Assembly (NCBI RefSeq): GCF_001040705.1
Contig: NZ_CVQP01000009.1
Coordinates: forward strand, 1-64,000
Direction of reading: 5' to 3'
Source of the DNA: Rhodococcus sp. RD6.2
GTDB lineage: Bacteria > Actinomycetota > Actinomycetes > Mycobacteriales > Mycobacteriaceae
Length of the DNA: 64,000 bases
Part shown: piece by piece, positions 13,949-28,319 of the stretch
How positions within the stretch are numbered: position 1 is the stretch's first letter
Layout: each line of letters begins with the position of its first letter
Notes under the pieces: model-generated
Databases searched by the model: none
The model's input: only the letters and a program-made list of their open reading frames with translations
Told to the model about the DNA's origin: nothing
Made by a program: the position numbers and the translations under genes

Positions 13949-14938
13949 ATGACCGAGGCGCATCTGTATCGACGCTTTCCCGCACTGAAGGCGAGTCTTC
14001 CCCGATTGCCCCTGGGTACGGGGCCGAGTCCGGTGCGTGAACTGACCCACCTGCCCACGGCGTCCGGTTCGGTCTGGCTCAAGGACGACGGTGCGTACGG
14101 AGACGGCGGCTGGGGCGGAAACAAGGTTCGGAAACTGGAATGGCTGCTGGCCGACATCCTGCGCCGCGATCGCAGGACGGTGATCACCGTCGGAGGGTTG
14201 GGTACCAACTGGGGGCTGGCCACCGCCCGCTACTGCCGGGAGCACGGGGTGAACACCGCGCTGGCGCTGGTCGACCAGCCCATGGACGACCACGTCCGGG
14301 ATCAGCTGCAGCGACTGCGCGACAGTGGCGCGCGGCTGTACTTCACCCACACCAAGGCGCGGACAGTCGCCACAGTGCCGTGGCTGCTGGCCCGACACCG
14401 TCGTGCCTGCTTCATCCCACCCGGCGGATCCAACGCCATCGGTGCTCTCGGGTATGTCGAGACGGCATTCGAACTGGCCGAGCAGATCCGCGAGGGGGCA
14501 TTGCCCAAGCCGGGCAGCGTCGTGGTTCCCGTCGGCTCCGGAGGCACCGCCGCCGGCCTGTCCCTCGGCCTGGGGTTGGCCGGGCTGTCGGACGTCACGG
14601 TCACCGCCGTCGTCGTCAACGACACGTTGCGCCTGGACCGGCGCACACTCGACCGGATGGCCCGTCGCACCGCGACGTTGCTCACCGACCGCGGCGCCGC
14701 GTTGCCGGACGTGCAGCCGGCCCCGCTGGTTGTCACCCGCGACTGGTTGGGCCCCGGCTACGGACACCCAACCCCTGCGGCGCTGGCTGCGCTCGCCCTG
14801 GCGCGGGAAGGTGAGAATCTCGCCCTGGAACCGGTGTACACCGGCAAGGCGATGGCAGCGTTGCTCGACCTCGACGAGGGCGGCCGATCGAGCCGTGACG
14901 CTCCGGTGTTGTTCCTCAACACGAACGGACCTCGATGA
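13949..14938 (+). CDS. PLP-dependent D-cysteine desulfhydrase / ACC deaminase-like enzyme
   Basis: A 329-residue fold-type II PLP enzyme. WGGNKVRKLEWLL (residues ~55-67) contains the PLP-binding lysine of the D-cysteine desulfhydrase/1-aminocyclopropane-1-carboxylate deaminase family, and VPVGSGGTAAGLSLG is the phosphate-binding loop. It should release ammonia (and sulfide) from a small amino acid such as D-cysteine; which substrate cannot be told. The family is usually 325-340 residues, so it is complete. The DHFR-like gene follows 61 bp later on the same strand. Confidence 0.85.
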   Translation: MTEAHLYRRFPALKASLPRLPLGTGPSPVRELTHLPTASGSVWLKDDGAYGDGGWGGNKVRKLEWLLADILRRDRRTVITVGGLGTNWGLATARYCREHGVNTALALVDQPMDDHVRDQLQRLRDSGARLYFTHTKARTVATVPWLLARHRRACFIPPGGSNAIGALGYVETAFELAEQIREGALPKPGSVVVPVGSGGTAAGLSLGLGLAGLSDVTVTAVVVNDTLRLDRRTLDRMARRTATLLTDRGAALPDVQPAPLVVTRDWLGPGYGHPTPAALAALALAREGENLALEPVYTGKAMAALLDLDEGGRSSRDAPVLFLNTNGPR

Positions 14939-14999
14939 CGTCTCGCCACAGGTCTCGTGCGCGGATCGGGACGTCCGGCAGGAGTGGGGAAGCACGGAC

Positions 15000-15620
15000 A
15001 TGAAGCTGACGACCATGACGCAGGTGACCGTCGACGGTGTGGTGCAGGGGAACGGCGGCGCCTCGGACGAGGACCGCCGGAACGGATTCGTACGCGGCGG
15101 CTGGGCGCTCGGGGCGGGCGACGCGGAGACCATGGGGCTGATCACCTCGACGTACCAGCGGGCCGATGCGTTCCTGTTCGGTCGGCGGACCTACGAACTC
15201 TTCGCCGGGTACTGGGGGACGGTCCCGGAGATGCGCGCCCACCCCATCGGTGTGGCATTGAACGAGACGCCCAAGTACGTCGCCTCGAGGACGCTCACCG
15301 AGGTGCGTTGGGAGAACACCACCCTTCTCACCGGTGACCTTGCCGCGGCGATCGCCGAACTGAAGGCGACATCCGAGGGGGAGTTGCAGGTGCACGGCAG
15401 TGGCACCCTCGTCCGATGGCTGCTCGCACGGGACCTCGTCGACGAGATGACCCTGATCGTCGTCCCGGTGATCCTCGGCCAGGGCACCCGATTGTTCCCC
15501 GACAACGGGCCCGACATCGCGCTCGACCTGGTCGATTCGCGTGTCGATTCGAAGGGTGTCACGATCCAGGTCCATCGGCCGAACGGCCGTCCGAGCTACC
15601 CGGCCGATCCGGGCGGATGA
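15000..15620 (+). CDS. Dihydrofolate reductase-like / RibD C-terminal domain protein
   Basis: A 206-residue protein of the RibD_C/DHFR-like superfamily: it opens KLTTMTQVTVDGVVQG, has FGRRTYE in the NADPH-binding region and closes with VVPVILGQGTRLF, all typical of stand-alone YwjB/YyaP-like reductases. The true substrate of these small proteins is usually unknown. ATG 15000 follows GGAGTGGGGA; no coding similarity lies upstream. Probably co-transcribed with the PLP enzyme gene. Confidence 0.85.
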   Translation: MKLTTMTQVTVDGVVQGNGGASDEDRRNGFVRGGWALGAGDAETMGLITSTYQRADAFLFGRRTYELFAGYWGTVPEMRAHPIGVALNETPKYVASRTLTEVRWENTTLLTGDLAAAIAELKATSEGELQVHGSGTLVRWLLARDLVDEMTLIVVPVILGQGTRLFPDNGPDIALDLVDSRVDSKGVTIQVHRPNGRPSYPADPGG

Positions 15621-15868
15621 CACCGTGGTCGCCGTGCGTCAGAGGTGTTGAGTCGCAAAGGATACGGATCGATGACGACGCCGACTGACAGTCACCGAAG
15701 CGAGACCTTCGAGCGTCGAGATTCCGGTGCCCCCCGCACCGGATCGGAGTTAAATGGTTCCAACCAACCCACGAGAATTCGACAGTAGAAAGTACAGCCC
15801 AAGTCAGCCGGCCACCCGCAGCTGTCAGGTAGTGAAGCACGGGCGGCGCATCGTCTTCGGGAAGCGCG

Positions 15869-17083
15869 ATGATCGAAGCAGTGTCGGGACTTCACACGGG
15901 CAGGCGAGAACATGCGGTCGCGCCCGAACCGCACGAACACACGGCAGACAGGATGGGGGACGACGCGGTTCCGCTGCGCCACCTCCTCGCGGTGGCACAG
16001 TTGACACCGCCCCAGGCCGCGCTGCTCGTGACGGACGTGATCGATCAGGTCGAGTCGGCGCGTGGACTCGGCAGGCAGCCGTCCTCCGTCCGGGGCACGG
16101 CCGTCACGGTGGCCGAGTCCGGTCGGCTGACACTCGAGCGGATGACCCGCCGGACCGGACCCGCACCGGACGTCACGGACGCGGTCGCGGGTGTCGTTCG
16201 GAGCATCGCCACCAACTGCCGTAAGGCGGAGTTCGTCGACAGGCTCACCGAATCCATTTCGGCGGCAAAGGATCTGCAGGACCTGGTGCGGATGGTTCGG
16301 GTGGCAGTCGCGCCCGACCTCGACCCGGACGCGGAGGAACGGCGGCGTCGTCAGATCGGCGAGCTCGTCACCGTGGCGAGTGGACACCCGCTTCCGGACG
16401 GCCGGCTCGTCACCGAGGCGCCGACCGCGCAGGACCTGCATTTCACCGACGCCGGATCCCTCGCGTCGAAAAGCTGGATTCCGCCCGTCCACAAGGTGTG
16501 GGACGAGCGTCGGAGGCGCCCGTCCCGGCGCGTCGTGATGTTCTCGCTGCTCGCGATCGCGATCCTCGCCGGAGCGGCGGTGGCCGTTCCCCGTGTCTGG
16601 TCCGAAATGGGCCGTGGCTGGAACGCCGTCCTGAGTCCGGACGATCCACCGGACCCGAACGCGATCGACCCGGTGTCACCGCCACCCGAGCCGTCACCCC
16701 CAGCGGGCGGTGTCGCGCCTGCGCCCGTCCCCTCCGGTCCTCCGGGCAGTGCCGGTCCGATCACCGCCGTCACCGCGACCTTCGCCGAGGGGGCGTGCGC
16801 GGCCGGGCAGCCGTGCCTGGTGCGGGTGGACGTGAACTACGACCCGGCGAAGGCAGTCGCCGCGGTGACCTGGAAGCTGGTCGTCCACGACCGGTGTTCA
16901 GGGGAGGTGCGCAGCAGTGCCGACGTCACGATGCCGACGGAGCCGGGGCGCGAGCAGGTGTACGGCCTCGGCAAGACCGACCTGCCGGCCGGTCCCGCGA
17001 TTGCGATCGTCGCCGAGACCAGCGCCCCCGCCGTCGCCGCCTCGGAGCCGTTGTTCGTGCCCGCCGAGAACGCGACCTGCTGA
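15869..17083 (+). CDS. Single-pass membrane protein of the wall-synthesis locus, RodZ-like topology
   Basis: A 404-residue protein with about 220 predominantly helical cytosolic residues, a basic stop (DERRRRPSRR) and one hydrophobic segment (222-241). A Pro/Ser/Gly-rich linker (about 256-297) follows, then a C-terminal extracellular domain of about 105 residues with four cysteines that looks like a beta-sandwich. I know no family for it. The order cytosolic domain, one membrane pass, linker, outside beta domain resembles RodZ, though no HTH is evident. It ends 15 bp before the SEDS-PBP fusion gene, so the two are surely co-transcribed and probably work together. ATG 15953 is an alternative start. 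Confidence 0.75.
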   Translation: MIEAVSGLHTGRREHAVAPEPHEHTADRMGDDAVPLRHLLAVAQLTPPQAALLVTDVIDQVESARGLGRQPSSVRGTAVTVAESGRLTLERMTRRTGPAPDVTDAVAGVVRSIATNCRKAEFVDRLTESISAAKDLQDLVRMVRVAVAPDLDPDAEERRRRQIGELVTVASGHPLPDGRLVTEAPTAQDLHFTDAGSLASKSWIPPVHKVWDERRRRPSRRVVMFSLLAIAILAGAAVAVPRVWSEMGRGWNAVLSPDDPPDPNAIDPVSPPPEPSPPAGGVAPAPVPSGPPGSAGPITAVTATFAEGACAAGQPCLVRVDVNYDPAKAVAAVTWKLVVHDRCSGEVRSSADVTMPTEPGREQVYGLGKTDLPAGPAIAIVAETSAPAVAASEPLFVPAENATC

Positions 17084-17098
17084 GGCGCGGGGAATGCC

Positions 17099-19951
17099 AT
17101 GCGGGGAAACGACCGCGAATCCGATCCGTGGATCGTCACGGCAGCGCTCGTCCTCGTCGTCCTCGGCCTGCTGAACCTGGTCTCCATCGGGCTCACCTCG
17201 TTCGCCGTCAGGCAACTGGGCTTCGCGGTCGTCGGGGTCGGCGCGATGTGGGTGGTCTCCCGGATGCGGGTGGACAAGCTGAGCCGGCTCGGTTGGTGGA
17301 TGCTCGGGGCGTCCGTCGTGATGCTGGCGGCCGTGCCGTTCGTGGGGGTCTCGGTCAAGGGCGCGCAGCGCTGGCTCGACTTCGGCCTGTTCACCGTTCA
17401 GCCGTCGGAGATCGCGAAACTCGCGTTGGTCCTGGTGGCGGCGACGGTGCTCGCCCGCGGCTACTCGACGCTCCGGCTGCTGGCGACGCTCGCGATCGCC
17501 GCGACGGTGGTCGCGTTGGTGGCGATGCAACCCGACCTGTCGACGGCCGTGGTGATGGCGGCGACCGCCGCGTTGATGCTCGTGCTCGCCAGGGTCCCAC
17601 TGCTTCCCCTGGTTCCACTGTTCACGCTCGGGGTCGCCGCCATGCCCCTCGCCGTCCTGTTCCTACGCCCGTACCAGCTCGAACGGATCCACGTGTTCCT
17701 GTCGAGCGAGGCCGACCCGAGCGGTCCGGGTTGGGCATCACTGCAGGCGGACATCGCGGTCGGCAGCGGTGGGCTGTGGGGTCTGGCACGCGACCCCATG
17801 TACGCCCTGCGCGCGCAATACCTCCCGGAGTCGGAACACGACCTCGCGTTCGCGAGCGTCGTGTACGGGTGGGGACTGATCGCCGGGCTCGCGGTCGTGG
17901 CGGCGTCCCTCGTGATCGCGTGGCGGTCGGCGCTCGCCGCCCGGCGCGCCCGGACGAGGCAGGGCGCACTCGTCGCAGCCGGTGTCGGTGTCCTGTTCGG
18001 GATGCACGCGATCCTGTCGGTCGGGGCGAGCCTGTCCGTGTTGCCACACACCGGAATGCCGATCCCGCTGTTCAGCTACGGCGGCACGGTCGCCATCGTC
18101 GGGTTCGTCGCGATCGGGCTGGTGCTCGCGGTACGGCGGGACGGCGTCGCGCGACCGTTGTGGGCGCCGCCGTCCAAGCGCCGTGGGCGCCCGCGAGGAA
18201 TGACGGTCGGGTCGCTCGCGGTCACCGCCGCGCTCGTCGCGATGTCGGTGTTCGCATGGCAGTTGCAGACCGAACGCGGTCCGGAGTTGCGCGCGCTCGG
18301 CGACCAGCAGATGCAACGGTGCATCCGGCTGCCGGCCGAGCGGGGACTCATTCTCGACCGGACCGGGGTGCCGCTCGCGACGAACGTGCCCGAGTACACG
18401 GTGTCGGTCGTCGCCCGACTGTTCGACGAGTCGAACCTCGGTGCGCGGGGGCAACTCGCGGCGCTGCTCGGGCTCCCACCCGCGGAGGTGGACGCCCCCC
18501 TCGACGAGCTGCGTGAGGGGGAGGTGCAGGCCGTCCTCGGCAGGGCCACTCCCGATCAGGCGCGGGCCGTCATCGACGCACACATACCGGGCGTGCTGGT
18601 GGCGCCGTCCGGAAAGCGGCACTACCCGTTCGGTACGACGCTCGCATCGATCCTCGGCTACGTCGGTGTCGGCGACCCCGAGGACATGGAGCGTTGGAAC
18701 CATCTGGCGCTCGGGTCGCGAGTCGGCAAGGCGGGCCTCGAGAAGCAGTACGACGCGCTGCTGCGCGGCAGCGACGGCAAACAGTGCATGTACGTCGACC
18801 CGTCCGGGCGTCCGGTCGCCGCGGGTGAGCGGGTCGACCCCATCCGCGGGCACGACCTGCGGCTGCACCTCGACATGGGATTGCAGAACCTGGCGACGGA
18901 CGGGTTGACGCAGGCGGTGCGCAGCAGTGGCGGTGACCTGGGTGCCGTGGTCGTGATGAATGCGCGCACCGGCGCGGTGCTGGCGCTGGCCAGCGTGCCC
19001 GGTTTCGACAACAACGTCTACGGTCCGCCCGTCGACCTCGTCGCCCTCGCGTCGCAGACCGGGGGACCCGGGCCCGGCCGGATGCTCAACCACGCATTTC
19101 AGACGGCGGCGCCGCCCGGCTCGACCTTCAAGATCGTCACCGCGTCGGTCGACATGGTTCACCCCGTGCTGTCACCCGACCAGGTCATCGCGACCGGCGC
19201 GTCGTACACGTACGGCGGCCACACCTTCAACAACTGGCAACCGATGGGCCCGCACAACATGCTGCAGGCCATCCAGACGTCCGACAACGTCTACTTCTAC
19301 AAGCTGGCAGAACTTCTCGGGCCCGAGCGGATCGCCGAGGTCGCCGACCAGCTCGGTGTGGGTCGGGCATCCGGAATCGACCTGCCCGGCGAGGCCACCG
19401 GGTTCCTCGGCACCCCCACGTCGGTCGGCGAGATCGGGTCCACCTGGTATCCGGGGTCCACCCTGCTCATGGGCATCGGGCAGGGCACCGTGACCGCCAC
19501 GCCGATACAGGTGGCGAGGTGGACGGTCGGCGTCGGCACCGGCGCGATGGTGACACCGCAACTGGCCGCGGGCTACGACGCCGGAACCATCGTCCCCGTC
19601 GACACGGAGCAGCCGCGACGGCTTCCGTTCGCGGACCTGCTCGGTCCGGTCCGGGCCGGGATGCGGGCCTCGGCGACGGTGGGTACGGGTGGCCAGCTCG
19701 CCGATCTGCCGGTGACCGCCGGCACCAAGACCGGCACGGCAGAGGATCCGTCGGCGCCGGGCAAGGGGCTCGACGCGTGGTTCTCCGCGGTGGCGCCCTT
19801 CGAGAATCCCGAGATCGTCGTGACTGCCATGGTGCGGGGCGGCGGGTTCGGCTCGGCGACATCGGGTCCCGTGGTGAAGGCGATCCTCGCGCGGTACTTC
19901 GGAGCCCCGGCACCGGCGGCACCCGCAGCAACCGCGGCACCGCCGGGATGA
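17099..19951 (+). CDS. SEDS glycosyltransferase (RodA/FtsW) fused to class B penicillin-binding protein
   Basis: A 950-residue fusion. Residues ~10-345 form a polytopic SEDS domain with RPYQLERIHVFL (190-201), the catalytic-loop aspartate D248 in PESEHDLAFA, and FSYGGT (325-330). A linker and a further membrane segment (about 369-389) precede a transpeptidase with STFK (S675, K678), SDN (728-730) and KTGT (877-880). It should polymerise lipid II and cross-link the strands. Normal genomes encode these as two proteins (RodA+PBP2 or FtsW+PBP3). GGGGA precedes ATG 17099. It follows the single-pass protein gene by 15 bp and converges with the mreB-like gene. All catalytic motifs look intact. Confidence 0.92.
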   Translation: MRGNDRESDPWIVTAALVLVVLGLLNLVSIGLTSFAVRQLGFAVVGVGAMWVVSRMRVDKLSRLGWWMLGASVVMLAAVPFVGVSVKGAQRWLDFGLFTVQPSEIAKLALVLVAATVLARGYSTLRLLATLAIAATVVALVAMQPDLSTAVVMAATAALMLVLARVPLLPLVPLFTLGVAAMPLAVLFLRPYQLERIHVFLSSEADPSGPGWASLQADIAVGSGGLWGLARDPMYALRAQYLPESEHDLAFASVVYGWGLIAGLAVVAASLVIAWRSALAARRARTRQGALVAAGVGVLFGMHAILSVGASLSVLPHTGMPIPLFSYGGTVAIVGFVAIGLVLAVRRDGVARPLWAPPSKRRGRPRGMTVGSLAVTAALVAMSVFAWQLQTERGPELRALGDQQMQRCIRLPAERGLILDRTGVPLATNVPEYTVSVVARLFDESNLGARGQLAALLGLPPAEVDAPLDELREGEVQAVLGRATPDQARAVIDAHIPGVLVAPSGKRHYPFGTTLASILGYVGVGDPEDMERWNHLALGSRVGKAGLEKQYDALLRGSDGKQCMYVDPSGRPVAAGERVDPIRGHDLRLHLDMGLQNLATDGLTQAVRSSGGDLGAVVVMNARTGAVLALASVPGFDNNVYGPPVDLVALASQTGGPGPGRMLNHAFQTAAPPGSTFKIVTASVDMVHPVLSPDQVIATGASYTYGGHTFNNWQPMGPHNMLQAIQTSDNVYFYKLAELLGPERIAEVADQLGVGRASGIDLPGEATGFLGTPTSVGEIGSTWYPGSTLLMGIGQGTVTATPIQVARWTVGVGTGAMVTPQLAAGYDAGTIVPVDTEQPRRLPFADLLGPVRAGMRASATVGTGGQLADLPVTAGTKTGTAEDPSAPGKGLDAWFSAVAPFENPEIVVTAMVRGGGFGSATSGPVVKAILARYFGAPAPAAPAATAAPPG

Positions 19952-19994
19952 GGGGGGCGCGGCACCGCCGCGGTGACTGGGAGAGGCCGACAGG

Positions 19995-20987
19995 TCAGTT
20001 GTTGCTGTAGGCGGCAACAACTTCGGGGTGGGCGAGGCACGCCGTCGCACCTTCGGCCACACACGTGAGTGGACGTTCCGCGGTCTTCACCGGCAGCCCG
20101 AACGCATCCTCGAGCAGTTGCGACAGCCCACGGAGCATCGAGCCACCGCCGATCGCGAGGACCCCCTCGGACATCACGTCGCCGATGGCCTGCGGCGGAA
20201 GGTCTTCCAGGCAGGACGTCAGGGTCTGCACGATGCTCGCCGTGGTCGGTCGTAGCGCCTCGACGATCTCGTCGACGTCGAGGGAGAGCAGGCGGGCCCG
20301 GCCGGTGACGGCGTCGAGGCCCTCCACCACGACGGACTGACCCTTCTCGGTGTCCGGCGTGCCCATCTTCGCGCGTTCGGCGGTGAGGTCGCCGACGATG
20401 ATCTGGTGTTCCTCGCGCAGGTAGTGGTGCAGCGCGGTGGTGAGTTCGTCACCGGCGATCCGGCAGCTTCGGTGCGAGATCACGCCACCGAAGCAGACGG
20501 CGGTGACCTCGGAGGTGCCGCCGCCGATGTTCACGACGAGATGCGCACGGGGTTCCATCGGATTGATACCGCACCCGACGGCGCCCGCGACGGGTTCGGG
20601 TATCAATCCGACCTTCCGCAGGCCGGCTTCGTGGCCGACTTCGAGCAGTGCGCGGCGTTCGAGCGGTGTCGCGCCTTCCGGTACCGAGATGACTGCTGTG
20701 GGTCGACGGCCGAAGTGTCCGTACGGCGAGGCCTGTTTGATGACGGCAGAGACGAACGCCTTCGCGGATTCCAGGTCCACGATGACACCGGCCCGCATCG
20801 GGCGCACCTGTGTGATGCCTATGGGCGTGCGTCCGACGAGACTGCGCGCCTCCTGGCCGATTGCAAGCGCACGATGTGGTTCCTTGGTGCGAACCAGCAT
20901 GAAAGACGGTTCGTTCAGAACGATTCCGTCCTCGGGGGTCCCGACGACCGTGTTCGCTGTTCCGAGATCGATACCGAGTCCGCTCAC
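19995..20987 (-). CDS. mreB: MreB-like actin homologue
   Basis: A 330-residue protein matching MreB along its length: phosphate-1 loop GIDLGTANT (5-13), ISVPEGATPLERRAL (100-114), the glutamate E131 before PVAGAVG, phosphate-2 loop NIGGGTSEV (153-161) and adenosine loop IGGGSMLRGL (279-288). The phosphate-2 loop normally begins with Asp; here it is Asn153. GTG 20987 is chosen because GGGAGG lies five bases upstream; an in-frame TTG at 21026 lacks a site. MreB polymers guide lateral wall synthesis, yet polar-growing Mycobacteriales generally lack MreB. It converges with the SEDS-PBP gene (43 bp apart) and diverges from a secreted-protein gene. Confidence 0.9.
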   Translation of the reverse strand: MSGLGIDLGTANTVVGTPEDGIVLNEPSFMLVRTKEPHRALAIGQEARSLVGRTPIGITQVRPMRAGVIVDLESAKAFVSAVIKQASPYGHFGRRPTAVISVPEGATPLERRALLEVGHEAGLRKVGLIPEPVAGAVGCGINPMEPRAHLVVNIGGGTSEVTAVCFGGVISHRSCRIAGDELTTALHHYLREEHQIIVGDLTAERAKMGTPDTEKGQSVVVEGLDAVTGRARLLSLDVDEIVEALRPTTASIVQTLTSCLEDLPPQAIGDVMSEGVLAIGGGSMLRGLSQLLEDAFGLPVKTAERPLTCVAEGATACLAHPEVVAAYSNN

Positions 20988-21166
20988 GTCGGCCTCCCAG
21001 TGGGAATCGAAACGAGATTGGGTCAAATGCTACGCACGCGGAGGCGATCGCGCGCGGTTTCGTCGCCGATGCAGCGGTGCGGTTCGGGAGTCTTGACACT
21101 GCGACGGTTCCGGCGATTGACTGAGCACCACGTGCCGACCCGCCCACCTGTTCGGGAGGTTGACGT

Positions 21167-22048
21167 ATGCGCGGAACTGGTGTGGCCCGCCCGGCGACTC
21201 GGCGCGGGGCCTCCTCGATCATGGCTGTGGTCGGAGCGTGCCTTCTGGTCCTGGCGCCGGGCCCGATGGCGGGGGGCGAACCTCTGCCGGAGACCGGATT
21301 CGCGGTCCCGTTCTCCGGGGCGCCCGGCTACGAGCAGCTGGCGCCGACCCAGGTGTCCGATCCGGAGCAACTCAATCAGCCGCTCGGTGAGCAGAAGGCG
21401 GACGAGATCGCAGCCCGGATCGGGCTCGCCAGGGACGATGCGCTGACCGACCAGCAGTATCGCGAACTCGTCAAGGGCGGGGGAGTCGGCGGAGATCGCG
21501 ATGCCGCGGAGGTGATCGACGCGTGCGTCCGGATCCTCACCAACACGAACGGCCGCCCCCTCCTGTCCGACGTCGACGGCCGCCCGACGCCGACCGTCCT
21601 GGCCAGCTACGGGTTGTACGTGAACACCGACGGACTGCTGCAGAGTCCGGCCAACGCGGACGCGCCGACGAGGCAGGTGAATTCGCTGATCGCGCCCGGA
21701 GGATTCGTGGGCACCTGGCTCAGGGACAACGGTGCGACCCACTCCCTGATCGCACTGTACCGATCGGCCTACACGGTGCAGGCCGTGTACGGGTATGCTG
21801 CGCAGCAGATTTCGGGTGCTGCGCAACTGGTTACCAACACCGAGGGCGGGGTGAGCGCGACGGTCGGCATGTCGATGGCCCCGCCGCTGTGGACCGTGAA
21901 CTTCGCCCTGCTGTATGTGTTGAAGCCGTCCCTCGCCGCCGCGATGCCCGCGTACTGGGCGCCCATTCCTCCGGCGGTCGCCGACGCCGTCAGGGCGACT
22001 CCCACCGGTCAGGTTCCCTACAGCGACCATCGGTCCTCCTTCGAGTGA
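21167..22048 (+). CDS. Exported protein of unknown function next to mreB-like gene
   Basis: A 293-residue protein with an N-terminal signal segment (basic start, then hydrophobic MAVVGACLLVLAPG at about residues 19-32) and a mature region without further clear membrane segments except a moderately hydrophobic stretch near 235-260. Strong site GGGAGG (21152-21157) precedes ATG 21167. I do not recognise the domain; the middle part (LLSDVDGRPTPTVLASYG) looks globular. Divergent position 179 bp from the MreB-like gene suggests shared control and possibly a role at the envelope. Confidence 0.75.
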   Translation: MRGTGVARPATRRGASSIMAVVGACLLVLAPGPMAGGEPLPETGFAVPFSGAPGYEQLAPTQVSDPEQLNQPLGEQKADEIAARIGLARDDALTDQQYRELVKGGGVGGDRDAAEVIDACVRILTNTNGRPLLSDVDGRPTPTVLASYGLYVNTDGLLQSPANADAPTRQVNSLIAPGGFVGTWLRDNGATHSLIALYRSAYTVQAVYGYAAQQISGAAQLVTNTEGGVSATVGMSMAPPLWTVNFALLYVLKPSLAAAMPAYWAPIPPAVADAVRATPTGQVPYSDHRSSFE

Positions 22049-22739: not shown

Positions 22740-23624
22740 TCAGGCCTGCGACATGGCTCGTGCCGTTGCGGTCAGTTCCGCTATGTACGTGCGCCGTTCG
22801 TCCGGGCTGACTGCGGAGCGGAGGGGTCCGATCTGCAGTTCCCATCGCGGCGTTCCTCCGGCGTCGAACACCGCGGCGGTCATGTAGCTGATCGGCAGAG
22901 GCAGCTCCGATTCGAGTGCCTCCACCGTGTACGGGTAGCCGCTGGTGTCGTCGATGAGCGCCCGCACCTGGTCGCGTAGCCGCTGACTGGCCGCATTCGA
23001 GGAGAGGTGCGTGACCACCTGGGCCAGCACGTCGATGCGGTCGATGTCGGCTGCATCGGCGCCCCAGACCGCGACCCCGGTCGACGCGGTCTGCGTCAGG
23101 AGGTGGGCGAGCTGGTCGCGGCGATCGGGGGGTGCGGTGTCGAGCCATCGCTGTTGCACGGCGGGGCCGGAGGATGCGACGACGGAGATGCCGCCAGGCG
23201 CCTCCAGTGGCAGGCGGACCCCCACTTCGATGCCACGTGGAATGTGTCCGAGCCTGTCGGTCATCGCGACGAACACCATCTGGGTGCCGTCGATCAGGCT
23301 GAGGGCAGCCCCGCAGCGAACCCGAGAAGCGAGGCCTTCAAGGTGGCCCATCGCGTTGTCCGGCAGGCTGAGCGCCTCGCGCGCCCGCGCGGCGATCGTC
23401 GCCAGTGCCGGGCCGAGTTGGTAGCGCAGGTCCGGCAGGCGCAGCACCCAGCCTCGCTGCTCGAGGGTGGCGAGGATGGAGCCGGTGGTGGATCTGCTCA
23501 GGTCGAGGGCGTCGGCGAGGTCCGCGGACGTCGCGGGGGTGTTGCGTGCGGCGAGCATTCCGATGATCGACACGACCCGGTCGGTTGGGGGAGATGGCAC
23601 GGAGCCACTCTTGCCAACTGTCAT
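22740..23624 (-). CDS. IclR-family transcription regulator
   Basis: A 294-residue regulator with a winged HTH at residues ~12-70 (RVVSIIGMLAARN, then ADLADALDLSRSTTGSILATLEQRGWV) and a C-terminal effector domain (~85-290) that is longer than the compact IclR core. It converges with the YigZ gene and diverges from the P450 gene with 79 bp between starts, in which two palindromes lie. It very likely controls the P450. Effector unknown. Confidence 0.88.
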   Translation of the reverse strand: MTVGKSGSVPSPPTDRVVSIIGMLAARNTPATSADLADALDLSRSTTGSILATLEQRGWVLRLPDLRYQLGPALATIAARAREALSLPDNAMGHLEGLASRVRCGAALSLIDGTQMVFVAMTDRLGHIPRGIEVGVRLPLEAPGGISVVASSGPAVQQRWLDTAPPDRRDQLAHLLTQTASTGVAVWGADAADIDRIDVLAQVVTHLSSNAASQRLRDQVRALIDDTSGYPYTVEALESELPLPISYMTAAVFDAGGTPRWELQIGPLRSAVSPDERRTYIAELTATARAMSQA

Positions 23625-23659
23625 CAGATGCTCCTACTCTCGCGGTAGTTCAAATACTT

Positions 23660-23686
23660 GTATCACACGATACGAATATTCGCATC
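23660..23686. promoter_or_regulatory. Two overlapping palindromes, candidate IclR operator
   Basis: GTATC-ACAC-GATAC (23660-23673) overlaps an 18-bp imperfect palindrome GATACGAATATTCGCATC (23669-23686) whose core CGAATATTCG is perfect. Both lie in the short divergent gap between the iclR-type and P450 genes, about 20-45 bp before the P450 start. Two dimers could bind side by side. Confidence 0.6.
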
Positions 23687-23703
23687 ATCGATTGGGGAGT
23701 TTC

Positions 23704-24912
23704 ATGACCGTGGCCACCGATCTCGGGGACGTCGACATCGAGGGAGTCGACTTCGCGTTCGAGGATCGCCCCGACATTCACGAGGTGCTCGAGGGGCTGC
23801 GTGAGCTCAAGTCGCACGCCATCGTGCCCTTCGCGGGGGTGAAGGCGGTGCTGCTGCTCACCAACGACCTCGTCGCCGCCGCCTTCAAGGACGAGGAGGT
23901 CTTCCCCGCCTCGGCCATCTACCCGATGACCACCGGGCCCGTCCTCGGAAAGACCCTGCAGTGCATGGCAGGCGACGAGCATCGCAAGAACCGGGCGCTG
24001 GTGTCGCCGTCGTTCCAGCGCAAGCGGGTCGCCGAGTTCATCGAACCGCTCCTCGAACCGCTCGCGCACGAGCTCATCGACCGGTTCGCCGATCGGGGTT
24101 CGGTGGATCTCGTGGCGGAGTTCACGACCCGGTACCCGGTGCTCCTGATCAGCCGGCTGATGGGCCTTCCGGAGCAGGACGAGGCGACTATTCACAGGTG
24201 GGCGCACGACCTGTTCTACTTCCCGTTCGACCCCGAGGCCGCGATGCGCGCATCGCAGGACTTCACCGACTTCGCCACGCCTATCATCGCCGACCGTCGC
24301 AGCAATCCCGGCGACGATCTGATCTCGGTCCTGGTCACCGAGAATCAGGAGGGTGAGACCCTCGCCGACGACGAGGTGCTCTCGTTCCTGCGACTGCTGT
24401 TCCCCGCGGGCGCGGACACCACGATGCTCGCGCTGGGCAACACCCTGTCCGCGTTGCTCACCCATCCCGATCAGATGGAACTGCTGCGGTCCGACCTCGC
24501 CGAGCACGCGATCTGGGCGGTGTGGGAGGGGCTGCGCTGGGAGCCACCGGTGGGACTGCTGCCACGGGCGTGCCCGGAGGCGGTCAGCTGGAACGGGATC
24601 GACATCCCGGCGCTGACGCCGATGGTCTTCTCCATCAATGCCGCGAACCGGGACCCCGACGTGTACCCGGATCCGCACGACTTCGACATCACCCGGCGCA
24701 AGCAGGCGATGCTCTCGTTCGGCCGGGGCCCGCACAGCTGCGCCGGAAACTGGCTGGCCATCGCCGAACTCGAGACGGCACTGACGGCACTCCTCCGACG
24801 ACTGCCCGGGCTGCGTCTGCGCGCCGGCGCCGAGGCGGACGCGAGGGTGACCAGCCAGGTCGGTGTGGCGCTACGCGGCCCGAACGCGCTGGCCGTCGAG
24901 TGGGACGTCTGA
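23704..24912 (+). CDS. Cytochrome P450
   Basis: A 402-residue soluble class I-type P450. I-helix AGADTT (235-240) carries the oxygen-activation residues, EGLR (275-278) is the K-helix ExxR, and FGRGPHSCAG holds the haem ligand C346. ATG 23704 follows GGGGAG. There is no ferredoxin or reductase gene beside it, so electrons must come from elsewhere. The divergent IclR-type gene is its probable regulator. Substrate cannot be predicted from sequence; the family is complete in length. Confidence 0.93.
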   Translation: MTVATDLGDVDIEGVDFAFEDRPDIHEVLEGLRELKSHAIVPFAGVKAVLLLTNDLVAAAFKDEEVFPASAIYPMTTGPVLGKTLQCMAGDEHRKNRALVSPSFQRKRVAEFIEPLLEPLAHELIDRFADRGSVDLVAEFTTRYPVLLISRLMGLPEQDEATIHRWAHDLFYFPFDPEAAMRASQDFTDFATPIIADRRSNPGDDLISVLVTENQEGETLADDEVLSFLRLLFPAGADTTMLALGNTLSALLTHPDQMELLRSDLAEHAIWAVWEGLRWEPPVGLLPRACPEAVSWNGIDIPALTPMVFSINAANRDPDVYPDPHDFDITRRKQAMLSFGRGPHSCAGNWLAIAELETALTALLRRLPGLRLRAGAEADARVTSQVGVALRGPNALAVEWDV

Positions 24913-26705: not shown

Positions 26706-28319
26706 TCACGGCAGCATCCACGCTGCCGCGCCGGTGGTCTGCAGCCAGATCAGAGCAGACATCACCGCCAGGCCGCCCAGGCTCCACGGCAGCAGCCTGC
26801 GCAGCAGTGCGCCCTCCCGGCCCGCAAGGCCCCCGACGGCCGCGACCAGCGCGAGGTTCTGAGGAGACAGCACCGTTCCCAGTGCGCCACCGGACATGTT
26901 CGCGGCAGCCAGCACTCGTGGGTCCAATCCGGCCTGACCGGCGGCCGCAACCTGAAGGGCCCCGAACAGTGCGTTGGAGGAGGTGTTGGACCCGGTCGCC
27001 GCGACGCCGAGCCACCCCAGGGCGGGGGACAGCAACGCGAACGCGCCGCCTGCCGTGGCCATCCACTGTCCGATCGTCATCGTCTGCCCGGACAGGCTCA
27101 TCACGTACGCAAGGGCGAGCACCGACATCACCGTGACGATCGGCCACTTCAGACGGTTCAGTGCCGCGACGTAACTGCGGAACGCGTCTGCCGGCCGCAG
27201 CCGCAGGATCGGGATGCACAGCAGGCCTGCGACCAGGACCAGTGTCCCCGGGGCGGCGAGGGTGTGGAAGGTGAAGGCGACCGCAGTGGGTTCGAGCCCG
27301 GCGGCTGTCACGACGTCGAGTCCGGGCCAGTCGAACACCCGCGTTGTCCGGGCGAGAAGCGCCTTCACCGGTCCGAGTTGGCTGGCCGCGAACACCGCCA
27401 CGATCAGCACGTACGGCGCGTACGCCTGCGCGGTTCGGGCGCGGTTCGGCTCGTCGGCGTGCCCGGGTCGGTCGGACTCCGCGGCACCCGCGCGGGTCCC
27501 GGCGCCGGGTGTCCAGACCCGCAGGAGGGCGACCAGCGCGAGCGCGCTCACCGTTGCGGCGACCGTGTCGACCAGCCCGACCGCGATGTAGTTCGAGCAC
27601 ACGAACTGGGCTGCCGCGAAGGAAATTCCAGCGACCACCGCGGCGGGCCAGGTCTCCCGCAGGCCGCGTCGACCGTCGATCAGGACCACCAGCACGAGTG
27701 GCACGACGACGGCCACAACCGGAACCTGCCGTCCGACGACGGCTCCGATCTCGTCGACGGGCAGTCCCGTCACCCGCGACATGGTCAGGGTCGGCGTTCC
27801 CAGCACCCCGAACGGTGTCGCGACGGTGTTGGCGACGAGCGCGACCATCGCCGCCTTCATCGGACGAAAACCGAGTGCCACCAACATGACCGACGAGATC
27901 ACGATCGGGGTGCCGAACCCTGCCACCGACTCGAGCAGGGCGCCGAAGCAGAACGCGACGATGATCGCCTGGATACGGCGGTCTGCGGAAATGCCGGCGA
28001 ACGAGCGCCGCAGCGCGTCGAAGTGGCCGCTCTCGACGGTCATGTTGTAGATCCACACCGCGTTGACGACGGTCCACATGATCGACAGCAACGCGAAGCT
28101 CGCGCCCTCGGCGCCCGCGCTCAGTGCCTGGCCCGCGGGCATCCGGTAGACCCCGATCGCGATCACCAGGGCGACGGCCAGCGACACCAGCGCCGCCCAG
28201 TGCGCCTTGATTCTCAGCACCGCAAGCATCACGAACATGGAGACGAGCGGCAGTGCGGCGACGACTGCCGACAGTCCGAGTTCGCCCGCCACGGGCGCCG
28301 GTACCTGCACGAATGCCAC
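26706..28319 (-). CDS. L-lactate permease family transporter
   Basis: A 537-residue polytopic membrane protein of the LctP/LldP family, with about 13-14 hydrophobic helices. Diagnostic stretches are ESVAGFGTPIVISS (near 131-144), FGVLGTPT, and the C-terminal SNTSSNALFGALQ and LSPQNLALVAA. The family imports lactate or glycolate with protons. GTG 28319 has GAGGTGGAG at suitable spacing. There is no lactate dehydrogenase gene next to it, so the substrate may be another short hydroxy acid. It converges with the propeller gene on the left. Confidence 0.92.
   Translation of the reverse strand: MAFVQVPAPVAGELGLSAVVAALPLVSMFVMLAVLRIKAHWAALVSLAVALVIAIGVYRMPAGQALSAGAEGASFALLSIMWTVVNAVWIYNMTVESGHFDALRRSFAGISADRRIQAIIVAFCFGALLESVAGFGTPIVISSVMLVALGFRPMKAAMVALVANTVATPFGVLGTPTLTMSRVTGLPVDEIGAVVGRQVPVVAVVVPLVLVVLIDGRRGLRETWPAAVVAGISFAAAQFVCSNYIAVGLVDTVAATVSALALVALLRVWTPGAGTRAGAAESDRPGHADEPNRARTAQAYAPYVLIVAVFAASQLGPVKALLARTTRVFDWPGLDVVTAAGLEPTAVAFTFHTLAAPGTLVLVAGLLCIPILRLRPADAFRSYVAALNRLKWPIVTVMSVLALAYVMSLSGQTMTIGQWMATAGGAFALLSPALGWLGVAATGSNTSSNALFGALQVAAAGQAGLDPRVLAAANMSGGALGTVLSPQNLALVAAVGGLAGREGALLRRLLPWSLGGLAVMSALIWLQTTGAAAWMLP

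Follow-up and report, generated by a model that had tools for sequence, protein, structure and literature searches.

The 64,000-nucleotide stretch of Rhodococcus sp. RD6.2 analyzed here (contig NZ_CVQP01000009.1, positions 1 to 64,000 of the forward strand; hereafter the window) carries a compact locus of three genes with the appearance of a wall synthesis machine: a gene for a single-pass membrane protein, called TM1 here, a gene for a RodA-PBP2 fusion protein, and a convergent gene for an MreB-family actin. We refer to the trio as the cassette. A preliminary description of the same DNA had listed these three open reading frames (ORFs) together with a divergent one for an exported protein, and its coordinates, lengths, and spacing of the four were correct on recheck (Table 1). 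The mreB-like and RodA-PBP identities that it proposed agree with the Pfam matches, which are MreB_Mbl for the former and FTSW_RODA_SPOVE, PBP_dimer, and Transpeptidase for the latter.

Table 1. Features of the cassette locus (window coordinates)
Feature	Position	Strand	Source or remark
TM1 ORF, 404 aa	15869-17083	+	ORF list
RodA-PBP2 fusion ORF, 950 aa	17099-19951	+	ORF list; 15 bp 3' of TM1
mreB ORF, 343 aa	19995-21026	-	ORF list; convergent to fusion, 43-bp gap
Exported-protein ORF, 293 aa	21167-22048	+	ORF list; divergent from mreB
Linker of fusion, residues 346-372, predicted cytoplasmic	18134-18214	+	Motif RRDG..R.LW......rPR
Conserved element GGAGTTAAAT	15746-15755	+	123 bp upstream of TM1; candidate cassette promoter

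The 251 genomes sampled from the family of the window were searched with MreB and with TM1. Strong MreB matches (those above 460 bits) and TM1 matches fell in an identical set of 44 genomes, as checked by equality of the two lists, and no genome among the 251 had a strong mreB without TM1 or TM1 without mreB. The cassette is present in 5 of 6 genomes of the window's genus and in 12/14, 8/20, 3/3, 1/1, and 15/18 genomes of five other genera, the 8/20 being the genus of R. wratislaviensis, and in 0/189 elsewhere; weak MreB matches in other genera (E of about 1e-6 to 1e-11, mostly frames of 600 to 670 amino acids) were read as DnaK type and not counted. The order TM1, fusion, convergent mreB is kept in all 40 of the family loci fetched first, and the trio is also found in three of three further loci; one of these, L130, whose genome is 79% complete, has both the fusion and mreB broken across frames. 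TM1 overlaps the start of the fusion by 14 bp in 14 of the 40 loci (with script-chosen start codons), and the stops of the fusion and mreB are often a few bases apart. Apart from the trio, no gene family predicted by a simple gene caller in the flanks was common to more than 9 of 41 loci. These observations show that TM1, the fusion, and mreB are inherited together.

The 293-residue exported protein behaves differently. It has no Pfam match; it occurs in 6/6 genomes of the window's genus, one of which lacks the cassette. A test of 36 genomes found it in 11, in one of them only as a weak partial match. Full-length homologues outside the window's genome are either on a different contig from the cassette or more than 300 kb from it, and none is near the cassette in the 40 family loci. 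Present without the cassette and never close to it in these loci, it was rejected as a member of the set and is a bystander, a neighbor at the cassette's site. From the four-gene set of the preliminary description, TM1, the fusion, and mreB are thus retained and the exported protein is dropped; that description had named failure of the genes to co-occur in relatives as one outcome that would count against it, and co-occurrence is what is seen, in 44/251 genomes and 40/40 loci.

The cassette extends beyond the family. Of 348 genomes of the order, 15 have fusions scoring above 640 bits; three of the 15 belong to the family and 12 to other families, and contig ends cut two of the fusions in the latter group. 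All 12 other-family genomes contain a cassette-type MreB (50 to 57% identity), which in one of them is 7 kb off and frameshifted, and none of 20 fusion-free control genomes does, three of these having another MreB (36 to 38%). When named genomes were scanned with the fusion alignment, at least 80 loci matched, of which at least 49 are fusions at 40% identity or more; the remaining 31 (30 to 34% identity, mostly Negativicutes) were taken, as a group, to be ordinary mre loci. The fusion genera among the matches listed are Rhodococcus, Prescottella, Skermania, Haloechinothrix, Actinophytocola, Amycolatopsis, Pseudonocardia, Actinomycetospora, Geodermatophilus, Modestobacter, Trujillonella, Blastococcus, Nocardioides, and Phytoactinopolyspora, and the fusion-bearing metagenome-assembled genomes (MAGs) among them are labeled Chloroflexi, Dormiibacterota, Actinomycetota, or "bacterium," labels that are possibly wrong. 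Rhodococcus jostii NBRC 16295 (L132) is one of the carriers.

Among the matches listed, MreB is encoded within 10 kb of the fusion in 47 of the 49 named loci, and the remaining two fusions are located at the ends of contigs, although one of these still has 10 kb of downstream sequence, free of MreB. The mreB gene is adjacent and convergent in 40 loci (a count that includes L167 and L175, where the ends of the fusion and mreB overlap by a few bases), co-directional downstream in one, co-directional upstream of TM1 in four (Actinomycetospora), and convergent but 7 and 8.7 kb distant in two. TM1 was found by script in 45/49, upstream in 40 and beyond mreB in five, and a further TM1 was recognized by reading in L167. 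Linkage that holds through three gene orders is good evidence of joint function. The fusion and MreB trees of 50 loci have 37 of 47 splits in common, compared with a mean of 0.1 and a maximum of 2 for relabeled trees. Decay of the module is indicated in L171 (Blastococcus sp. TF02-09) and L122, where a frameshifted cassette MreB lies 7 kb away from the fusion.

The fusion combines FTSW_RODA_SPOVE (8e-65), PBP_dimer (3.4e-30), and Transpeptidase (8.6e-49) domains. Its best NCBIfam models are pbp2_mrdA (388.9 bits, cut-off 455) and rodA_shape (239.1 bits, cut-off 336.7), both below the cut-off; judged by its domains and best models, the fusion is of the RodA/PBP2 type even though these curated thresholds are not reached. 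Its SEDS part scores higher with rodA_shape than with ftsW (239 versus 215), whereas the SEDS protein of the host pkn cluster shows the reverse (213 versus 262). Asp248 of the SEDS domain and Ser675, Lys678, Ser728, and Lys877 of the transpeptidase domain are identical in 104/104 fusions, a set that includes genomes present under two loci and from which L100, L127, L130, L152, L159, and rows that were too short were left out. We take Asp248 to be the SEDS catalytic residue and the other four, together with Asn730, to be transpeptidase motif residues. The matches show the predicted enzyme domains of the window fusion to be intact and Rod type. No phage record covers 80% of the fusion, and the best 10 of 30 phage matches involve the PBP half only.

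SEDS proteins end, and class B penicillin-binding proteins (PBPs) begin, in the cytoplasm, so the joint between the two halves of the fusion should be cytoplasmic. Over the 104 fusions, the linker has a mean major-residue fraction of 0.67, equal to that of the SEDS domain (0.67), and conservation to this degree would be odd for a plain tether. In E. coli, MreB binds the C-terminal tail of RodA and the N-terminal cytoplasmic segment of PBP2 (PMC13327600). From this binding and the conservation of the linker, we infer that the linker may be a dock for MreB.

The window MreB matches Pfam MreB_Mbl (PF06723) at 310.3 bits (cut-off 27), and its best PDB matches are the MreB structures 8azg (E of 3e-71) and 1jce (E of 5e-71). 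It scores above the cut-off of the NCBIfam model NF010539 (306.7; cut-off 293) and below that of TIGR00904 (286.5; cut-off 365.75). The 50 cassette MreBs in a tree group together in a single clade (100/100), separate from 10 canonical actinobacterial MreBs and six from Bacillota/Mycoplasmatota; the outgroup sample was small, and the program flagged long branches. Given this separate clade, the reading of the cassette as a reduced local mre cluster was rejected. In the MreB of T. maritima, we take Glu131 and Asp158 to be the catalytic acids, with Asp158 as the phosphate-2 Asp. The window MreB retains Glu144 at the position equivalent to Glu131 and has Asn166 at that equivalent to Asp158, where several Prescottella-group MreBs have Ser. 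Both acids are kept in 59 of 91 distinct cassette MreBs (from 101 rows, identical proteins counted once; L122, L128, L130, L152, and L171 were left out of counts and trees as fragments or frameshifts as extracted), in 10/10 canonical actinobacterial MreBs, and, for the six others, as Glu in 4/6 and Asp in 6/6.

TM1 is predicted to consist of a cytoplasmic part, a hydrophobic segment at about residues 220 to 244 (located by reading in the window protein and by script in its relatives), a Pro-rich stretch, and an outer domain. The outer domain contains four Cys residues (310, 316, 343, and 404) that are invariant in 31 aligned proteins; in a 37-protein alignment, C310 is present in at least 90% and the other three are present in all. 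Left out of this conservation analysis were L047, L100, and L130, and then L156, L160, L163, L169 (short form), L174, and L175 (doubtful starts). The window TM1 has no Pfam match above the cut-off and one far below it; among the 37 members, any Pfam family that is matched is matched by a single protein (best E of 0.0044), and a scan of the same members gave no match to a RodZ family.

The N-terminal part of TM1 points to a kinase ancestry. Residues 33 to 95 or so align with kinases, and residues 33 to 180 align with longer deep homologues. In five deep-branching MAG loci, the TM1 gene lies beyond mreB; longer forms are readable in four of these and in L167, and by eye they look like a degraded kinase with a glycine-rich loop and Lys, L167 having DWG in place of DFG. 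For comparison by hhalign, a kinase profile was built from 25 kinases of the pkn clusters of 14 genomes. The five deep TM1 proteins matched it with Prob 93 and E of 3.5e-7; the 28 actinobacterial TM1 proteins alone matched it in the same register with Prob 32 and E of 4.9e-4, and the deep and actinobacterial profiles matched each other with Prob 97 and E of 1.2e-10. The best E among the controls (30 column-shuffled, three reversed) was 0.088, and MreB or SEDS profiles as targets gave E values of 0.06 or more. Ser/Thr kinases also rank first in a PDB profile search with TM1, marginally (E of 0.027), whereas hmmscan found no kinase family at E of 1 or less for the 37 members and none at E of 10 or less for 14 proteins.

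The catalytic motifs of Ser/Thr kinases are HRD and DFG. Neither was seen in the 37-protein alignment or, by reading, in the window TM1, so a kinase-like profile without them would make the TM1 domain a relic. It is very probable, judging from these profiles, that TM1 carries a domain that derives from a kinase and has lost catalytic activity. There is a precedent for a kinase in a Rod-like complex of actinobacteria: PkaI, a Ser/Thr kinase, binds MreC and PBP2 in the Streptomyces spore wall complex (PMC4416010).

The host genome has three SEDS genes in all, one of them in the pkn cluster; with two SEDS genes besides the fusion, the fusion is an extra one. Within the genus, the genome that lacks the cassette also carries a third SEDS gene (G003:C17:246348-247451), in a 557-residue frame too short for the fusion. 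MreC (PF04085) was not found in the window's genome; of 16 cassette genomes, G379 alone gave a match, adjoining a second MreB, and a single match came from 10 genomes without the cassette. The preliminary description had suggested a separate Rod complex-like machine that might serve cell-shape change or dormancy; that the machine is a separate one is supported by the co-occurrence of the genes, by the two other host SEDS genes, and by MreC not being found in the host. It had also found no role described for the gene set, and, among the open-licence PMC papers listed by full-text searches, none describes it, judged by titles and the beginnings of abstracts. The "nearly all" of a published survey accommodates the rhodococcal mreB, which may already have been visible there.

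The flanking genes differ among cassette loci. Upstream (5') of the cassette in the window, Pfam identifies an LCP-family protein, a pyridoxal phosphate (PLP) enzyme, and a RibD-domain protein. In G004, the LCP gene, the next ORF, the exported-protein gene, and YigZ are close together without the cassette, which is on another contig, and the 7.4 kb that hold the PLP enzyme, the RibD protein, and the trio in the window compare with 0.7 kb at the G004 site. The PLP enzyme (D-cysteine desulfhydrase/CuyA type) and the RibD-domain protein, at 13949-15620 of the window, belong to the same extra segment and were possibly co-inserted. Further downstream, two genes identified by reading, a cytochrome P450-like one (23467-24912) and a lactate permease-like one (26706-28319), are apparently unrelated to the cassette. 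No known RNA family was found in the window at gathering thresholds.

Upstream of TM1, the element GAGTTNAAT occurs at a distance of 118 to 134 bp in 18 of 40 family loci (two left out), against a mean of 0.05 and a maximum of 2 in single-base shuffles, a count that is inflated by the kinship of the loci. Three promoter patterns were searched for in the same region, none of which was clearly enriched over single-base (not dinucleotide) shuffles. Upstream of mreB, a SigH-like pattern is present in 4 of 41 family loci (single-base shuffle mean of 0.5, maximum of 2). Three large Rhodococcus plasmids (NZ_CP046575.1, NZ_CP021356.1, and NZ_CP070615.1; L270 to L272) carry an intact fusion at 71 to 72% identity; the window MreB, by contrast, has no match of 60% or above among plasmid records. 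In two of the three, the fusion stands beside metal transport and heme-copper oxidase genes.

The cassette is a real, conserved, and mobile module, most likely a minimal Rod complex of natural origin that has a pseudokinase as partner; that TM1, the fusion, and mreB together make up such a complex, self-contained and movable, is probable on the strength of their sequences and linkage. In the proposed mechanism, MreB would bind the membrane and the cytoplasmic linker of the fusion, which would polymerize and cross-link peptidoglycan as a single polypeptide, so that polymerase and cross-linker would be inseparable. TM1, as the dead descendant of a membrane Ser/Thr kinase, would replace MreC and perhaps RodZ and MreD too; it would link the filament in the cytoplasm with something beyond the membrane and act as a switch for the synthase. 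The three proteins would form a complex regulated by TM1, wall synthesis would be dispersed and not polar, and the cassette would thereby add MreB-guided, nonpolar wall synthesis to a bacterium with pole-growing relatives. We put forward only tentatively the fuller picture of a plug-in elongasome, with an actin whose ATP hydrolysis is optional, a pseudokinase that replaces RodZ, MreC, and MreD, and a linker in which the RodA tail and PBP2 head are welded into an MreB docking site.

A number of results weigh against a minimal Rod complex of this kind. At least one of the two catalytic acids is altered in 32/91 distinct cassette MreBs from several lineages (in one of the 32 by a Glu-to-Asp change only); a canonical ATPase cycle is thus not general among cassette MreBs, and the substitutions suggest that ATP hydrolysis may be dispensable in part of the family. 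In the fusion, the SxN motif ends in Asn (Asn730 in the window) in just 60% of the 104 proteins. The N-terminal part of TM1 is poorly conserved: some Pseudonocardia TM1 proteins have 195 to 246 residues (script-chosen starts), in G004 only residues 176 to 404 match, and, with a kinase hidden Markov model, only L133 among the actinobacterial members exceeds the best of 720 shuffles, and barely so. Short matches to HTH_25 (RodZ) occur in 26/26 genomes, including those without the cassette, and are nonspecific; MreD (PF04093) was matched in 1/26 genomes, but the search missed G266, which has MreC. Finally, no mreB lies within 6 to 8 kb of the fusion on any of the three plasmids, and the TM1 beside it is fragmented in R. 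pseudokoreensis and reduced to a short stretch in R. oxybenzonivorans, with a partial TM1 match about 10 kb off the fusion on the plasmid of strain WAY2. The fusion can therefore persist detached from its partners, and no other result speaks as strongly against a trio that cannot be separated.

It is possible, to the same tentative degree as the plug-in elongasome, that the cassette is a Rod complex reserved for one particular cell form, such as coccoid cells, buds, spores, or fragmenting hyphae; this reading is compatible with, not opposed to, a minimal Rod complex. It would fit genes that are accessory alongside two other SEDS genes, and the Streptomyces spore wall MreB complex resembles an elongasome and includes a kinase (PMC4416010, PMC4255298). 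Among the carriers are Geodermatophilaceae, with published accounts of coccoid cells and budding (PMC9686282), and Rhodococcus, with reports of rod-coccus cells (PMC12671745). On the other side stand the presence of the cassette in just 8 of 20 genomes of the genus of R. wratislaviensis, which makes any link to a coccoid-rod life cycle weak at best, and the three promoter patterns, none clearly enriched upstream of TM1. It is unlikely that the fusion is a spare synthase for back-up or stress, perhaps beta-lactam tolerant, that works alone while MreB and TM1 are placement helpers or are being lost. The plasmids with an intact fusion, no mreB near it, and a TM1 fragmented or nearly gone speak for such a synthase, as do the altered catalytic acids of many MreBs and the patchy, accessory distribution, and PBP2a/PBP4(5)-type NCBIfam models do match the fusion, although far below the cut-off and as expected of any class B PBP; however, the MreB linkage is kept through three gene orders and across families, and a strong mreB without TM1, or the reverse, is met in 0/251 family genomes. 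Least probable is that TM1 is not kinase derived and owes its likeness to a helix-rich, Ala/Leu-rich composition, for although hmmscan finds no kinase family, single actinobacterial members score about as shuffles do, and the PDB matches are marginal, the deep homologues are collinear with the kinase profile, the actinobacterial set alone repeats the register, and the 33 shuffled or reversed controls are far worse.

Polar growth in the absence of MreB is classically exemplified by mycobacteria and corynebacteria. Unlike these polar-growing relatives, a sizeable share of the rhodococci carry an apparently complete actin-guided wall synthase. Polar growth in Mycobacteriales is linked to DivIVA, M. 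tuberculosis and its relatives are said to lack Rod components except RodA-PBP2 (PMC8262863), and mycobacteria are said to lack MreB (PMC7864634). MreB was annotated in all Geodermatophilaceae genomes of one study (PMC9686282), unlike here, where some sampled genomes of the family that we read as Geodermatophilaceae gave no strong match to MreB. A single-chain synthase should be easier to purify, its short conserved linker is a possible grip of the actin filament on the wall synthase, and the pseudokinase joins the parts that may switch wall growth.

Compared with the Rod complex of E. coli and B. subtilis (MreB, MreC, MreD, RodZ, RodA, and PBP2), the cassette has the MreB-family actin, the RodA-type SEDS protein, and the PBP2-type transpeptidase, and its synthase keeps the catalytic residues. 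It differs in encoding RodA and PBP2 as a single protein and in having a host in which no MreC was found; moreover, the locus has a single-pass partner with a kinase-like relic instead of a known RodZ family, and the genes are mostly convergent in order, accessory, and mobile. The SEDS and class B PBP pair of the Mycobacteriales pkn cluster, also present in the window's genome, is similar in composition, but its genes are separate and its SEDS protein is nearer to ftsW. The Streptomyces spore wall complex (PMC4416010) likewise provides MreB-directed wall synthesis with a kinase member in an actinobacterium, but there the genes form an mre cluster, PBP2 is separate, and the kinases are active; most actinobacterial MreBs among the matches listed score about 490 to 525 bits with Pfam, against 310 for the window MreB, a comparison made with actinobacterial MreBs in general. 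An artificial RodA-PBP2 fusion largely restored rod shape in E. coli and made polymer in vitro (PMC6207328); it too is a single chain with RodA first, whereas its linker is Gly-Ser and the cassette has a natural linker with a conserved motif and an MreB of its own. Another close system is the E. coli minimal elongasome of MreB and activated RodA-PBP2 mutants (PMC13327600), which also combines MreB and RodA-PBP2 without MreC. That system is a laboratory mutant, whereas the cassette is a natural conserved module in which both putative MreB-binding segments are joined into one conserved linker; as the natural counterpart of an elongasome built by mutation, it raises the question of which Rod parts are truly needed.

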